Below, in pieces: positions 6,369 to 63,153 of a DNA stretch of 64,000 nt. Origin of the DNA: Kofleriaceae bacterium (GTDB lineage Bacteria > Myxococcota_A > Polyangia > Haliangiales > Haliangiaceae); contig JANTGM010000012.1 of assembly GCA_024762925.1 (NCBI GenBank), forward strand, positions 1 to 64,000, read 5' to 3'. Position 1 is the first letter of the stretch. Each line of letters opens with the position of its first letter. The position numbers and the translations under genes were made by a program. Below the pieces are notes generated by a model. It had not been told where the DNA came from. It made no database searches and saw only the letters and a program-made list of their open reading frames with translations.

Positions 6369-8156
6369 TTGAGTGTGGTTGGTACACCTACGACAATTCC
6401 GGGTAACATTCACGGCTCCATGTTTGTCGTCTTTGAAGGAATTGACGGCAGCGGCAAGACGACAGTTTCAAATCTGGTCGCCAAGGCGCTGCGAGACCGG
6501 GGCATAGACGTCGATCATATTCGCGAGGGGGGCGAGTTCGCCTCGCCTCTGGTCGCCCGAATGCGAGATTTCGGCAAAGACACGCGCAACATCAGCTTGC
6601 GCCCACTTCCAGAGTTCCTGATGTACGTGGCGCGAGATGCACAACTTCTTGCCGAGTGCATCAATCCCGCTCTCAATCGCGGCGGTCTCGTATTCGCCGA
6701 CCGCTACCTCTACTCCTATGAGGTTCTCGGTCATTACGGCCGAGGACTCGAACTTGAGCAAGTGCGCCCCATCATCGACTCTGTCGCTGCTGGAGTCTGG
6801 CCCGATCTCGTTGTTCTGATGGACGTGGATCCACATCTCGCGAGGGCGAGACGCAGATCGAGCAAGGTGCAGCAGAAGGCCAACGGCGAAAGGACGGGTA
6901 GAGGCAGCGGCAGTCGCAAGGGGCTTGGCGGCGTTGGCATGATGCATCGGCTGCGAGCAGGCTATCTAAAGCTCGCCGAACGCGAACCCAAACGCTGGCT
7001 CGTCATCGACAACTGCAACACTGACCTGGACGTTGTGGTCGAGAGAGTCACCGAAGCCATCGCGAGCTTGTACGAAGGAGCCTCCACAGCTCAGGTTGTT
7101 ACAGGGACGAAGGTGGCGCCAAGAGCTGCCACTGCTGCCGAAGCGCCCACGCTCGAGTCCGCTCGTGAAGCCTTCTACGACATGATTGCCATCCGTCGAC
7201 AGAACGAACCTGCTGTAGCGGCGTACTTCCTCGCGGGCTTGGTCGACGGCGAGGCTCATGGGTGGCGGAAGGATTTGGCTAAGGAGGCACCTCACGTCGT
7301 TGCCTACGGTCTCCGTGCTCTCGGTGGGGAAGGTGCGTGGGAGCTACGAGAAACTCTTAGGTTCGCATCTCCTCGATATGTCGCGAAGTCGCTGGCGGGA
7401 GTTGCGGTTGAGGGCGAACGCGCTGACACAATGCGACGCGAGTTCTATAACGACGTGCCGCGTGCTGTTCTCGACACGATTCGCGGCTCAGATCGAGATA
7501 TCGCCTGGGAGTTTCGCGAAGGTGCTGCAGGGCGAGAGCCTCGGGCGGTCGTGGCCTCCTTGCGACGCATGGAGAGTGCACGCGCTTGGTCGTGGCGTGA
7601 CCGCTACATAGAAGAGATGGGAGGCGACACTGTCTACGAGGATATCCTGTTGGCGCGCCCGCTTCTCGACAGCATTCGTGGGCTCGGCGACAAACGCTCC
7701 TGGGAAATCCGCAAGCGCTGCCTGGTTGAATCACCGGTGCAGGTGCTCAAGTCATTGGATGGTCTTGCCTGCGAACGCTCATGGAATCTGCGAGAAGAGT
7801 ATGCCGCACTCGCGCCCAAGGTTGTGTTGCGCACCTTCGATGGACAAGACTCCGAGTCGGCATGGGCCATGCGGCGGCGCTTTGCCTCGCGGGCAAAGGA
7901 AGCGCTCGATTCGATGCGGGGCCTCGACATGGATGCTGCGTGGAGCATTCGAGACGCCCTCATTGAGGTTTGGCCGTCGACAGTTGCAAGTTCCCTTGGT
8001 GCACTGGGTGGCACTGAGAGAGGGCTGGCTCTCATCGAGACTCTGCTCACCAAGTTTCCAAGGAATCTGAGCCTTCTAAAACATGTCACGCAGGTGGCCG
8101 CAGCTGAGGCAACAGGGGGCGCGGCTCGCAGAAATGTGCTTGATGATGCTGTCTAG
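6369..8156 (+). CDS. Thymidylate-kinase-like P-loop protein with C-terminal ~27-residue repeats
   Basis: The N-terminal ~220 residues are a dTMP-kinase-type domain: P-loop FEGIDGSGKTT, an FADRY motif (DR[YH] of thymidylate kinases), and an Arg-rich lid region RARRRSSK. The remaining ~310 residues form about ten tandem units of ~27 residues with the pattern (L/I)-x-G-L-x4-A-W-x-L-R-x7-P-x2-V-L-x-S (for example DKRSWEIRKRC...SPVQVLKS), which I do not recognise as a named family. The chosen TTG start has a GGAGG seven bases upstream; GTG 6351 and ATG 6420 are alternatives. Normal Tmk is ~210 residues, so the tail more than doubles it. The stop TAG lies in the CTAG of element copy C. Confidence 0.75.
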   Translation: MSVVGTPTTIPGNIHGSMFVVFEGIDGSGKTTVSNLVAKALRDRGIDVDHIREGGEFASPLVARMRDFGKDTRNISLRPLPEFLMYVARDAQLLAECINPALNRGGLVFADRYLYSYEVLGHYGRGLELEQVRPIIDSVAAGVWPDLVVLMDVDPHLARARRRSSKVQQKANGERTGRGSGSRKGLGGVGMMHRLRAGYLKLAEREPKRWLVIDNCNTDLDVVVERVTEAIASLYEGASTAQVVTGTKVAPRAATAAEAPTLESAREAFYDMIAIRRQNEPAVAAYFLAGLVDGEAHGWRKDLAKEAPHVVAYGLRALGGEGAWELRETLRFASPRYVAKSLAGVAVEGERADTMRREFYNDVPRAVLDTIRGSDRDIAWEFREGAAGREPRAVVASLRRMESARAWSWRDRYIEEMGGDTVYEDILLARPLLDSIRGLGDKRSWEIRKRCLVESPVQVLKSLDGLACERSWNLREEYAALAPKVVLRTFDGQDSESAWAMRRRFASRAKEALDSMRGLDMDAAWSIRDALIEVWPSTVASSLGALGGTERGLALIETLLTKFPRNLSLLKHVTQVAAAEATGGAARRNVLDDAV

Positions 8157-8336
8157 TGCCAGATCTAGGAGCATAGAACCCTCTCGCTCGCTTTCTTGCC
8201 CTCTGGACGCGCTGGCATGGCCAGCGCTCTTCGTTGCTCAGCTCCTTCCTTGCCCCGGTAGGGTGCTCGTTCGCGCCTCGTCAGAGAACAAGCCTGCTTC
8301 GCGAGAGAAAGTCGATGCTCTTGAGCTTGGCACCAG
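8153..8336. mobile_element. Divergent MITE-like element (copy C, second subfamily)
   Basis: A full-length (~183 bp) but diverged copy. It begins CTAGTGCCAGATCT and ends AGCTTGGCACCAG, an imperfect inverted repeat. The order of internal blocks is the same as in other copies (CTCTCGCTCGCTTTCTTGCC, TTGCCCCGGTAGG, TTCGCGCCTCGTCAGAGAAC). The central hairpin is present with a different sequence: GCGCTGGC-ATG-GCCAGCGC at 8209-8227, an 8-bp perfect stem. The left CTAG contains the stop codon of the kinase gene; the right end lies inside the porin reading frame. A half copy of the same subfamily is at 62873. Confidence 0.7.
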
Positions 8337-13875: not shown

Positions 13876-15048
13876 ATGTCAGACTCTCTCACCGATGCCA
13901 CTGCGAAATGCACCCATCTTGCTCTCACGGTCTTGGACACCCTGCGGCCTTGGGTCGAATGCAATTCGTATTCGCGCGATGTGGCTGCCGTGAACGCGAT
14001 GGGAGACTTGCTGGCCGCCGACTTTGACATTCCTGGTCTCAGCCTCGCGCGCCATCAAGGCAACGGAGTTGGTGACCACCTCGTCTTCACAAGCGATGCC
14101 TGGCAGGGGGCGGACCCGGCAGATCGAATCGTGCTGATTGGCCATCACGATACAGTCTTCCCGCCTGGCAGCTTCGAGGTCTGGAATCTTGATGGTGACC
14201 GGCTGCAGGGGCCCGGTGTGCTCGACATGAAGGGTGGCCTCGTGACGATCTTGCTAGCGTTCAAGACGCTTGCCTCGCTCGACATCTTGCAGACCTTGCC
14301 GGTGGCATTTGTCTGTGTTGGCGATGAGGAAATTGGCTCCAAGGATTCATCGGCGCTGCTCTGTGAAGTAGCTGCTGGCGCTGGTGGTGCTCTGGTTTTT
14401 GAGGCTGGGCGCGCCGCCGACAAGATCATCACCATGCGCAAAGGAACAGGTGCTCTCCATGTGAGCGTCGAAGGTCTGGCAGCCCACGCTGGCAATCATC
14501 ACAAGGAGGGGCGCAACGCGATTCTCGCACTCTCGAAGTTCATCATCGAGGTGCAAGCGCTCACCGACTATGACAAAGGCGTGACGGTCAATGTTGGGCT
14601 CATCTCTGGAGGCGAAGCTCGGAACACCGTGCCACATCATGCTGAGTGCGACATCGACTTTCGATTGATTCACAAGGAAGATGGTGAAGAACTCGTAAGG
14701 GCAGTGCACGCTCTTGCAGAACGTTTTGGCAAAGAGACGTCTACGAGTTTTTCTGTGTCGGGCGGAGTCTCACGGCCGCCGCTAGAACGAAGTGAAGCAT
14801 CAGCGGGTCTTGCAGCAAGGTACGCTGATGCAGCCAAGCTCAGTGGCCTGGGCTTTGAGGAAGCAGGTCTTATTGGTGGCGGATCCGATGCGAACAACGT
14901 GAGTGCGATTGGTGTTCCTGCGATTGATGGAATGGGGCCTCGGGGCAGCGGCTTTCACACATACAACGAGCACATCGAAGTCTCCTCGCTTGCCTTGCGC
15001 GCCGAAGCACTGGTGCGCTTTCTCCTCTCGTGGGGCACACCGCTCTAG
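13876..15048 (+). CDS. M20-family metallopeptidase
   Basis: A 390-residue dinuclear-zinc enzyme. Zinc and catalytic residues are present: IGHHDTVF (His-x-Asp), [10 protein letters not shown] (bridging Asp), and GDEEIGS (catalytic Glu-Glu), with a dimerisation lid region between and a late His ([10 protein letters not shown]). The best match by shape is the carboxypeptidase G2/glutamate carboxypeptidase branch; ArgE-type N-acetylornithine deacetylase is a close relative, and the divergent argC makes a role in arginine synthesis possible but unproven. No signal peptide, so cytoplasmic. Confidence 0.85.
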
Positions 15049-15295
15049 GACATCAAGACATCGATCGCGAACGCGGCAGGATGTGCCGCTGTGAGCATTG
15101 TGCGACACCCGTGCGACTGAGAATCTTTCTGTGACCGATGCAGGTGATCTTGGGGTGATCTTAGTTTGTGCTCTCGTCAGAAAGTGCTTGTCAGCACGTC
15201 CTCAGAGGCATAGTGTAGATAGTACGGACACGCTGTACTTACAGACGTCCAAACGATTCATCCTAGATGTTTCCGCAACAAGGGAAGGGGAGCCT

Positions 15296-15780
15296 TTGAC
15301 GGGAGAAGATCCACCTCAGTAGGAGAAGTAGGCTAACGGCCGCTGCGTTTGAGGAGTGCAGAATGCTCTGCATGAGATGCCAGCGAGACGGGTACGCCAA
15401 ACCATTCGCAGATGTCGCTTGAGCGCTTGTTTAGGCTCTTGTCGGCAAACGTGAGCCATCTGGCTCAGGGAGAGAGCATGCAACTTGGAAGTCCTAGCAT
15501 CGGAAAGAGGAAGACCGATATGACAGAGGAAGATCCACCAGAATAGTCATCGTCGGCCGTGTTTCTCGGCAGTTTTCGCGAGCTGCCAAGCGACCGACGA
15601 TAAACCAGTAGACGTCCCACGCGCAGTTCTGTACCGGCCTCGACCCCAATAGCGGGCAGGCAAATGCCAAACCATCACATGAACGAAAGCGCAGCCACCC
15701 TGTTGGTATTGGGGCTGAAGCATGGAGAGCGAAGTCTCCAACGAAATGAGCGGGTCTAATCACCCCGCTCATTTTGGTTT
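15296..15780 (+). ncRNA. Candidate structured non-coding RNA ending in an intrinsic terminator
   Basis: A gene-free stretch (15049-15830) packed with perfect hairpins: TGCAGA-ATGC-TCTGCA (15357-15372), TGAGCCA-TC-TGGCTCA (15452-15467), ATCGTCGG paired to CCGACGAT (15549-15556/15594-15601) enclosing GGCAG/CTGCC, CCCCAATA paired to TATTGGGG (15644-15651/15707-15714), TGGAGA-6 nt-TCTCCA (15723-15740), then an 11-bp terminator stem. Smaller hairpins also lie upstream (for example GTGCT-TGTC-AGCAC near 15185). Open frames here are short and unconvincing. No tmRNA, RNase P or SRP RNA core motif could be found. The 5' end is arbitrary and the strand is inferred from the T-run after the terminator. 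Confidence 0.45.
15744..15776 (+). terminator. Strong intrinsic terminator
   Basis: Perfect 11-bp stem AAATGAGCGGG / CCCGCTCATTT with a 9-nt loop (15755-15763), followed on the plus strand by TGGTTT; the stem itself ends in ATTTT. The reverse strand has a weaker T-run. It closes the structured region 15296-15743 and may be bidirectional. Confidence 0.75.
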
Positions 15781-15829
15781 CGGAACCCGATGAACAAGCG
15801 CGTCACACCACTATGGCTAAGATAAATAC

Positions 15830-16013
15830 CTAGTGCGCGATTCATGGAATATGGAACGCACTCACTCGTCTTCTCGCCCGCTGGAGAGACTAGCTCAGCC
15901 AGTCTTCTTCGTTGTTCCTCGGTCGCCTGCCCCAGCAAACTCCCTCTTCGCGCCTCGCCAGCAAACGAGCTGACTTCGCGATCACGAATCAATGTCCATG
16001 GGACGCCCCCTAG
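15830..16013. mobile_element. MITE-like element, full length (copy D)
   Basis: A complete copy bounded by CTAG at 15830 and 16010. Left end CTAGTGCGCGATTCATGGAAT; right end CAATGTCCATGGGACGCCCCCTAG. Internal blocks are GCACTCACTCGTCTTCTCGC, a central hairpin GACTAGC-TCA-GCCAGTC (15888-15904, one mismatch), TTGTTCCTCGGTCGC and TTCGCGCCTCGCCAGCAAAC. No reading frame of significance. The right CTAG contains the stop codon of the minus-strand hsp70 gene. Confidence 0.85.
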
Positions 16014-17617
16014 TCGTCTTCGGGCGGACGAGCAATACTCATAGCTTCGGTGCGACGCTTCTCGACGATCTCTTCGAGATCATCTTGACTGAGACCGCCC
16101 GATGGGGTGATGCGGACCTGAGCAGACTTGCCAGTAGAGAGCTCCGTTGCCTTGACGCTCAAGATGCTCTCAACGTCCACCGTCACCATTAGCTTGATTC
16201 GTACGGTACCCGCTTTGCCCTTGGGAAGGCCGCCGAGACGCACTTGCCCGAGCTTTCGATTGCCTGTGATGGTATCGGACTCCCCTTGGTAGATTTCTAC
16301 CTCGACGAATTCCTGATCATCGAGGTTGGTAGCGAAGAGTTTGTGCTCGCGCACAGGCAACATCGAATTGCGCTTGATGATGGCAGCGAACCCGGTGCTG
16401 CCCACTTTGATTCCGATGGTGTGCGGAGCAACATCAAGTAGTGTTGCCTCTTCATCGTCTCCAGCGAGAATACCGGCGTGAGCGGCCGCTCCAAGGGCAA
16501 CCACTTCATCGGGGTTGGCCGCTTTGGAGGCGGTCTGTTCAAATATGCTCTCAACGGCAGCTTGCACTGCGGGTGCTCGCGACATGCCGCCAACCAAGAG
16601 AACCTCTTCAATGTCAGACGCGACAAGCCCCGCGTCATTCATGGCTCCATAGCAAGGAGCCTTGAGTCGTTCTACAAGGTCTGCAGAGAGAGCATTAAAC
16701 TGGTCGCGCGTGATCTTGCGTTCGATGTGAATCGGTTCCGGACCGTGAGCAGCATGCAGGTAGGGCAGTTGGATACTCGCTGAGCGCTCGCTGCTCAGTG
16801 CTCGTTTGGCACCCTCGGCAGCTTCCTTAAGACGGCCCATCGCTACAGGGTCGCTCGTTAGGTCCACTCGGTGCTCATCAAAGATCGAATCGACCCAATG
16901 ATCAATGAGCACCCGGTCCCAGTCATCACCTCCAAGCGCCGAGTCACCGTTGGTGGCAAGCACCTCAAAGACATTGTCCTCAACGGCCATGATCGAGATG
17001 TCAAACGTTCCGCCTCCGAGGTCAAAGACCGCGACGATGCGCCGACCAGCTCGAACTCGGTGGGCGCCATAGGCAAGTGCAGCTGCGGTTGGCTCGTTTA
17101 GGATGCGGCAGATATCAAGGCCAGCAATCGTTCCAGCGTCTCGGGTTGCCTGTCTCTGCGAGTCGTCGAAGTATGCTGGCACCGTCACGACCGCTCGCGT
17201 GACAGGCTCGCCCAGAGCTTCCTCAGCCTGGGTGCGCAACTCCCGAAGCACGTGAGATGCAACCTCTTGTGGCGAGATTGGGGTGTCATCTACACGAACC
17301 CAAGCATCGCCATTTGGCGCCGAAACAATGCGGAATGGGGCCGTGCGAGCAAACCAGCCCACATCTTTGGCGTTGACCTTTCGCCCGATGAGTCGCTTGG
17401 CGCCCATGACCGTTCTCTTGGGATTTGTCACCGCCTGTCGAAGGGCCTTTTCGCCAACCAAGACGTCACCAGAGTTTCTCTCACCGGTGTAAGCGACGAC
17501 CGATGGTGTGGTTCGACGATTTGCCGATCCTGCGAGCACTCGTGGGCCGGAGCCGCTATCGAAGACAGCCACACAGGAGTTGGTAGTGCCCAAGTCTATG
17601 CCAATGATTCGAGACAC
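16010..17617 (-). CDS. Hsp70 (DnaK-like) chaperone, short form
   Basis: A 535-residue Hsp70. The ATPase begins MSRIIGIDLGTTNSCVAVF; the second phosphate loop is FDLGGGTFDISIM, and VLLVGGMSRAPAVQ closes the nucleotide domain. The substrate-binding beta domain is present (IEIYQGES, NRKLGQVRLGGLPKGKAG), but the helical lid is shortened compared with the ~610-640 residues of housekeeping DnaK. It is therefore probably a specialised paralogue, as common in myxobacteria. It lies 4 bp downstream of a PilZ-DnaJ-TPR gene and forms an operon with it, so the J-domain protein is the likely co-chaperone. The stop codon is in the CTAG of element copy D. Confidence 0.9.
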   Translation of the reverse strand: MSRIIGIDLGTTNSCVAVFDSGSGPRVLAGSANRRTTPSVVAYTGERNSGDVLVGEKALRQAVTNPKRTVMGAKRLIGRKVNAKDVGWFARTAPFRIVSAPNGDAWVRVDDTPISPQEVASHVLRELRTQAEEALGEPVTRAVVTVPAYFDDSQRQATRDAGTIAGLDICRILNEPTAAALAYGAHRVRAGRRIVAVFDLGGGTFDISIMAVEDNVFEVLATNGDSALGGDDWDRVLIDHWVDSIFDEHRVDLTSDPVAMGRLKEAAEGAKRALSSERSASIQLPYLHAAHGPEPIHIERKITRDQFNALSADLVERLKAPCYGAMNDAGLVASDIEEVLLVGGMSRAPAVQAAVESIFEQTASKAANPDEVVALGAAAHAGILAGDDEEATLLDVAPHTIGIKVGSTGFAAIIKRNSMLPVREHKLFATNLDDQEFVEVEIYQGESDTITGNRKLGQVRLGGLPKGKAGTVRIKLMVTVDVESILSVKATELSTGKSAQVRITPSGGLSQDDLEEIVEKRRTEAMSIARPPEDD

Positions 17618-19297: not shown

Positions 19298-19475
19298 TGC
19301 GCGATCCATGGACATTGATTCGTGATCGCGAAGTCAGCTCGTTTCTGGCGAGGCGGAAAGAGGGAGTTTGCTGGGGCAAGCGACCGAGGAACAACGAAGA
19401 AGACGGGCTGAGCCCGTCTATCCAGCGGGCGAGAAGACGAGTGAGCGCGTTCTATATTGATGAATCGCGCACTAG
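19294..19475. mobile_element. MITE-like element, full length, inverted (copy E)
   Basis: A complete copy in the opposite orientation to D and F, bounded by CTAG at 19294 and 19472. It begins CTAGTGCGCGATCCATGGAC and ends TGAATCGCGCACTAG. The central hairpin is GACGGGC-TGA-GCCCGTC (19402-19418), a perfect stem that differs from the GACTGGC/GCCAGTC version by a compensating pair of changes. The left CTAG carries the TAG stop of a small gene relic. Confidence 0.85.
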
Positions 19476-24278: not shown

Positions 24279-24300
24279 GAGCGCAGGTGTGTACGGCCAC

Positions 24301-24483
24301 CTAGTGCGCGATTCATGAATATAGAACGCGCTCACTCGTCTTCTCGCCCGCTGGATAGACGGGCTCAGCCAGTCATCTTCGTTGTTCCTCGGTAGCTTGC
24401 CCCAGCAAACTCCCTCTTCCCGCCTCGCCAGCAAACGAGCTGACTTCGCGATCACGAATCAATGTCCATGGATCGCGTACTAG
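24301..24483. mobile_element. MITE-like element, full length (copy F)
   Basis: A complete copy bounded by CTAG at 24301 and 24480. Left end CTAGTGCGCGATTCATGAAT, right end CCATGGATCGCGTACTAG. The central hairpin GACGGGC-TCA-GCCAGTC (about 24357-24373) has one G/A mismatch and looks like an intermediate between the two stem versions. The right CTAG supplies the stop codon of the PP2C gene. Next to copy D this is the closest to a consensus element. Confidence 0.85.
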
Positions 24484-58788: not shown

Positions 58789-58970
58789 CTAGCAGGGCGA
58801 TCCATGGACATTGATTCGTGATCGCAGTCTGCTCGTTTGCTGGCGAGGCGGGAAGAGGGAGTTTGCTGGGGCAAGCGACCGAGGAACAACGAAGAAGACT
58901 GGCAGAGCCAGTCTGCCCAGCGGGCGAGAAGACGAGTGAGCGGGTTCTATATTTATGAATCGCCCCCTAG
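58789..58970. mobile_element. MITE-like element, full length, inverted (copy G)
   Basis: A complete copy in the same orientation as E, bounded by CTAG at 58789 and 58967. Left part AGCAGGGCGATCCATGGACATT, right end TTTATGAATCGCCCCCTAG. The central hairpin is GACTGGC-AGA-GCCAGTC (58897-58913), a perfect 7-bp stem. The right CTAG carries the stop codon of the minus-strand di-haem lipoprotein gene. Confidence 0.85.
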
Positions 58971-62970: not shown

Positions 62971-63153
62971 CTCGTGCGCGATTCATGAATATAGAACGCG
63001 CTCACTCGTCTTCTCGGCCGCTGGAGAGACTGGCTCAGCCAGTCTTCTTCGTCGTTCATCGGTCGTTTGCCCCAGCAAACCCCCTCTTCCCGCCTCGCCA
63101 GCAAACGAGCTAACTTCGCGATCACGAATCAATGTCCATGGATCGCGCACTCG
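62971..63153. mobile_element. MITE-like element, full length (copy H)
   Basis: A complete copy flanked on both sides by CTCG rather than CTAG (62971-62974 and 63150-63153). Left end TGCGCGATTCATGAATATAG, right end CCATGGATCGCGCA. The hairpin GACTGGC-TCA-GCCAGTC (63028-63044) is a perfect 7-bp stem. The changed flank on both sides supports a target-site duplication. It is the one full copy not at a stop codon and lies ~120 bp before the cotransporter gene. Confidence 0.85.

Follow-up and report, generated by a model that had tools for sequence, protein, structure and literature searches.

A candidate structured RNA gene between M20 peptidase and Hsp70 genes in the Kofleriaceae

Long structured non-coding RNAs are uncommon in bacteria, and several form unusual complexes. 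OLE, GOLLD and ROOL are large ornate bacterial RNAs (PMC12286853), the raiA-motif RNA is a further structured bacterial RNA (PMC11706538), and Pxr, a stem-loop sRNA of myxobacteria, has been described with three stem-loops (PMC5684412). Here we analyse a stretch of 64,000 nucleotides (the window) on contig C12 of the 6.8 Mb genome (G000) of an uncultured Kofleriaceae myxobacterium, from a lineage with few described RNAs. One of its intergenic spacers probably carries a gene of ~555 nt for a structured non-coding RNA that is transcribed independently, from its own sigma-70-type promoter to an intrinsic terminator, and that would serve as a scaffold in trans. Comparison with a related species supports the assigned strand, selection on structure and the lack of coding, and conservation is high enough for a promoter-like block and a 3′ domain to be recognised. 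The element is most likely a member of an undescribed, narrowly distributed RNA family found in one genus of Kofleriaceae-type myxobacteria; a literature search turned up no account of a comparable RNA from these bacteria.

Layout of the locus

The spacer between the M20 peptidase gene and the Hsp70 gene is 961 bp long, and argC and argB are divergent from the M20 gene. A preliminary description had called 15100-15780 of this spacer a gene-free stretch of stem-loops ending in a terminator, and the observation is confirmed: all the stems that it named, the internal repeat and the terminator stem were located at those places or within a few bases of them. Its two distant pairings are ATCGTCGG (15549-15556) with CCGACGAT (15594-15601) and CCCCAATA (15644-15651) with TATTGGGG (15707-15714). 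The internal repeat corresponds to GAAGATCCACC at 15305-15315 and 15529-15539, within a 26-nt repeat whose copies are 77% alike. The 11-bp terminator stem AAATGAGCGGG (15744-15754)/CCCGCTCATTT (15764-15774) is present as well; its U-tract is weak, and a simple terminator scan gave the + strand site no score.

The region was also said to lack a convincing reading frame, and we observe only short ORFs of ≤92 aa. Comparing all six translated frames with the corresponding spacer of the congener G002 gave weak matches spread over several frames and both strands, as expected of conserved non-coding DNA. No frame was outstanding or conserved, which fits a structured non-coding RNA, and a coding region was rejected on this basis.

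Features of the M20-Hsp70 spacer, its surroundings and a related spacer (window coordinates unless a contig is named)
Feature	Position	Strand	Remark
M20-family peptidase gene	13876-15048	+	PF01546; upstream of spacer
Promoter-like block AAAGTGCTTGTCAGCAC	15177-15216	+	consensus match only; -35-like TTGTCA 15188-15193, 17-nt spacer, -10-like TAGTGT 15211-15216
Proposed structured RNA, ~555-560 nt	15223-15782	+	between promoter-like block and terminator; predicted ends
Conserved 5′ block GAGCCUUUGACGGGAGAAGAUCCACCUCAGUA with first copy of GAAGAUCCACC repeat	15291-15322	+	conserved in G002
Hairpin UGAGCC/GGCUCA	15452-15467	+	upstream of AGAGAGCAU block; pairing probability 0.96 in both species
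Second internal-repeat copy (GACAGAGGAAGAUCCACC)	15521-15546	+	77% identical to 15297-15322
Helix AUCGUCGG/CCGACGAU with inner hairpin GGCAGUUU/GAGCUGCC	15549-15601	+	compared with G002 in the text
Domain closed by CCCCAAUA/UAUUGGGG	15644-15714	+	contains invariant AAUGCCAAACCAUCACAUG (15663-15681)
Hairpin UGGAGA/UCUCCA with GCGNAG loop	15723-15740	+	two double changes in G002
Terminator-like stem-loop and U-tract (intrinsic)	15742-15780	+	compensatory change preserves the stem in G002; U-tract better there
MITE-like repeat copy	15830-16013
Hsp70/DnaK-type gene	16010-17617	-	PF00012; downstream of spacer, convergent
MITE-like repeat copy	19306-19475	-
MITE-like repeat copy	24299-24471	+
MITE-like repeat copy	58795-58970	-
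MITE-like repeat copy	62971-63141	+
G008 spacer (L051)	G008:C335 1540-2215	-	strongly folded; two 51-nt AAUGCCACCGG modules, 16-bp terminator stem

Transcription probably begins near 15223, because the block just upstream resembles a promoter for the unit. In G000 and G002 this block shares 17 consecutive invariant bases around TTGTCA and the same 17-nt spacing to TANTGT. The proposed promoter and terminator are consensus-like sites conserved in both species, yet simple scans scored neither in the window. The G002 terminator, TTTTTGTTTT, is much better than that of the window and has its T-rich tail on the + strand only; this, together with a promoter-like block that reads the same way, assigns the RNA to the + strand. 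We infer the transcript and both of its ends from these sites. The analysis as a whole supports the earlier suggestion of a structured, gene-free RNA of ~480-650 nt ending in an intrinsic terminator.

The element starts <180 nt past the stop codon of the M20 gene, on the same strand and with no terminator found between them, as would be expected if it were no independent gene but part of the M20 mRNA, either its long, structured 3′ UTR or a tail processed from it, which stabilises or ends that transcript. We consider this quite improbable, since a conserved promoter-like block separates the RNA from the M20 gene and since G001, the third congener, lacks the element at the site: its M20 gene has no such tail and lies ~15 bp from the Hsp70 gene. 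A role in cis is also less likely for an independently transcribed RNA whose own predicted promoter separates it from the M20 gene and whose other neighbour, the Hsp70 gene, points the opposite way. Its absence from the site in a sister species indicates a specialised rather than a housekeeping role.

Immediately downstream lies an interspersed repeat that is separate from the RNA. It is 175-185 bp long with inverted ends CTAGTGCGCGATTCATG / CATGGATCGCGCACTAG, its copies are 90-94% alike, and it looks like a MITE inserted at CTAG sites. The copy nearest the RNA extends into the 3′ end of the Hsp70 gene, and the Hsp70 stop codon seems to be situated within the end of the repeat. The window also contains a partial copy at 1125-1183 (90%) and a diverged copy at 8153-8304 (68%), and a further copy is present on another contig of the same genome (G000:C17, L095).

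Conservation of structure in a congener

By energy alone, the region in the window folds little better than shuffled sequence does (z = -2.2 for 15100-15790 and z = -1.8 for 15170-15780), so the stems alone would not prove an RNA; the G002 orthologue, of ~526 nt, gives z = -3.7. The case for more than chance comes from this second species, in which the region is conserved and shows compensatory change. G002 is a Kofleriaceae MAG in which the same M20/Hsp70 pair flanks a homologous spacer (G002:C566, contig JAHEAK010000346.1). The promoter-like block, the 5′ block and a ~240-nt 3′ domain (CGUCG to the terminator) are conserved between the two genomes, and the remaining spacer from the terminator towards the Hsp70 gene does not align. 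In G002 the RNA and the Hsp70 gene are separated by a MarR/GbsR-like regulator gene (L002, 857-1411 +); the window and G001 have none at that place.

The 5′ block follows the common pattern GCCUUUGACGG..GAAGAUCC(A/G)CC.CAG. Hairpins in the middle part occupy matching places with different letters in the two species, as matched by eye. At the place of the hairpin UGAGCC/GGCUCA, G002 has GCCAC/GUGGC just before the AGAGAGCAU block, a correspondence drawn by eye; automatic full-length alignments misplace that block. A first alignment of the 3′ domain (A4) was dropped because it misplaced the CCCCAAU block.

Among 31 pairs in five helices of the 3′ domain, 96.8% of cells are paired over both genomes and six pairs are changed on both sides, compared with 35-54% paired and 0-1 double changes in controls in which the partner was slid by 1-3 columns. 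This difference suggests that the RNA structure of the 3′ domain is under selection. In the outer helix at 15549-15601 every pair is kept in G002, with one double change, and the inner hairpin is redrawn as AGAAGC/GCUUCU. Both 7-bp arms of the CCCCAAUA/UAUUGGGG stem and the 19-nt motif AAUGCCAAACCAUCACAUG are identical in G002, so that this stem is conserved with no pair changed; the motif itself is mostly unpaired in the structure model. The window's own fold offers a rival register here, with 15635-15643 paired with 15709-15717. As a modest figure, 8 of 500 letter shuffles reached the observed 3′-domain values, and the covariation count covers two sequences, one clear relative being known, from which the structure was itself partly drawn. 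The evidence for the 3′ domain is for these reasons good but not overwhelming. Loss of the stems in close relatives had been named as the outcome that would speak against an RNA; they are kept, with compensatory changes, in one of two congeners.

An intergenic sequence under no selection, with stems arising by chance, would account for the weak single-sequence folding score and for the very narrow distribution. It is very unlikely to be the explanation given the block-wise conservation and the double changes in stems, in contrast to the flanking spacer, which fails to align at all. The locus is a case in which one syntenic relative convinces where folding energy alone would not.

Distribution and a possible distant relative

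When 318 genomes of the class were searched with R1, a covariance model of the 3′ domain, the element was found in 2 of them. The rest of the G001 genome (82% complete) gave no match to R1. An R1 match in G007, at the terminator that follows a subtilase-like gene, was lost under stricter filters. An exact 18-mer scan of ~85,000 species genomes returned four matches, among which the G002 contig is the only credible one; the other three had no model match, and the one in Mucilaginibacter adjoins rpsL in a likely reading frame. The phage, plasmid and IMG/VR collections gave no credible match, and a 26-bp match inside a transporter-like ORF of G035 was taken as chance.

Another genus of the family (G008) has a terminator-ended 650-nt spacer behind the same M20 gene, with a folding z of -4.8. 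Its AAUGCCACCGG modules are flanked by complementary arms of 15-17 nt, and beyond the spacer lie a phosphoribosyltransferase-like gene, a MarR/GbsR-like regulator gene resembling the one between the RNA and the Hsp70 gene of G002, and then the Hsp70 gene. R1 did not detect this spacer even with filters off, and ~25 further M20 loci whose downstream sequence could be used lacked the ATGCCA..CC motif. A shared-motif pattern tried as a link hit 19 genomes of the class besides G008, yet its gap was too short for it to hit G000 or G002, and being this unspecific it proves nothing. The G008 spacer may hold a separate or distantly related RNA; as a possible distant relative, it would fit a history in which the site held an old RNA and G001 lost it. 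Two copies each of the GACRG..GAAGAUCCACC and GCCAAACCAU motifs are present in the window. A more speculative reading, which we put forward tentatively, is that the element is the first member to be seen of an undescribed class of large Kofleriaceae RNAs with a two-module architecture, the G008 spacer being a distant member. In that case sequence search would understate both the age and the breadth of the class.

Possible function and comparison with known RNAs

The core motifs of tmRNA, RNase P RNA and SRP RNA had been reported as missing from the region, and the comparison with known families agrees. None of the 4227 models of Rfam 15 matched anywhere in the window at the gathering score; for 14900-16050, at E up to 10, there was a single meaningless match on the other strand. 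ARAGORN found no tmRNA in the window. The tmRNA of the genome (RF00023) is at C53:36494-36856 (172.5 bits), and its RNase P RNA (RF00010) is a single match at C2:124185-124556 (311 bits). These two RNAs are, like the element, structured and of a similar order of length, but they are housekeeping RNAs encoded elsewhere in the genome. Long-range stems in a compact structured region could also suggest a retron RNA or a degenerate self-splicing intron; the region has no Rfam intron match or other match and its neighbours are peptidase and Hsp70 genes, which makes this highly improbable.

We favour a structured scaffold that would act in trans, presenting to a protein or RNA partner those conserved stretches that are mostly unpaired, namely the GAAGAUCCACC repeats and, inside the domain closed by CCCCAAUA, the motif AAUGCCAAACCAUCACAUG. 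Weighing against this preferred explanation as a whole are the two clear sequences available, the window z of about -2, the 8 of 500 shuffles, and the absence from the G001 site and from all the other genomes of the class that were searched. The same 19-nt invariant motif and the repeated unpaired motif would also suit target pairing, so that the RNA might instead be a regulator whose AAUGCCAAACCAUCACAUG or GAAGAUCCACC repeats pair with mRNAs and alter their translation or stability. This is unlikely: near-perfect antisense sites of the invariant motif (≤3 mismatches) in G000, G001, G002 and G008 were about as numerous as those of the reversed control pattern, with no near-perfect complementary site standing above it, and antisense sRNAs are typically far shorter than this RNA. 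A sponge of the CsrB/RsmZ type, titrating CsrA through repeated GGA motifs, would likewise be an intergenic RNA with stem-loops, and several GGA motifs are present, some in predicted loops. CsrA (PF02599) was found in 0 of 6 genomes (G000, G001, G002 and three family members), with control genomes expected to have it giving it, and GGA motifs are not enriched over shuffles (12 against 11.6 in the window element, 14 against 12.9 in G002). The sponge reading is contradicted unless a divergent CsrA exists, and we give it next to no weight.

For the trans-acting scaffold that we prefer, the described RNAs offer analogies of differing closeness. Pxr is much smaller and is set apart by its description. 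From OLE, GOLLD, ROOL and the raiA-motif RNA the element differs in having no Rfam match and in being confined to one myxobacterial genus, with no shared sequence or structure shown. The likeness to these four lies in the manner of working only: each is a structured RNA of unknown or little-known function that has many conserved unpaired stretches.
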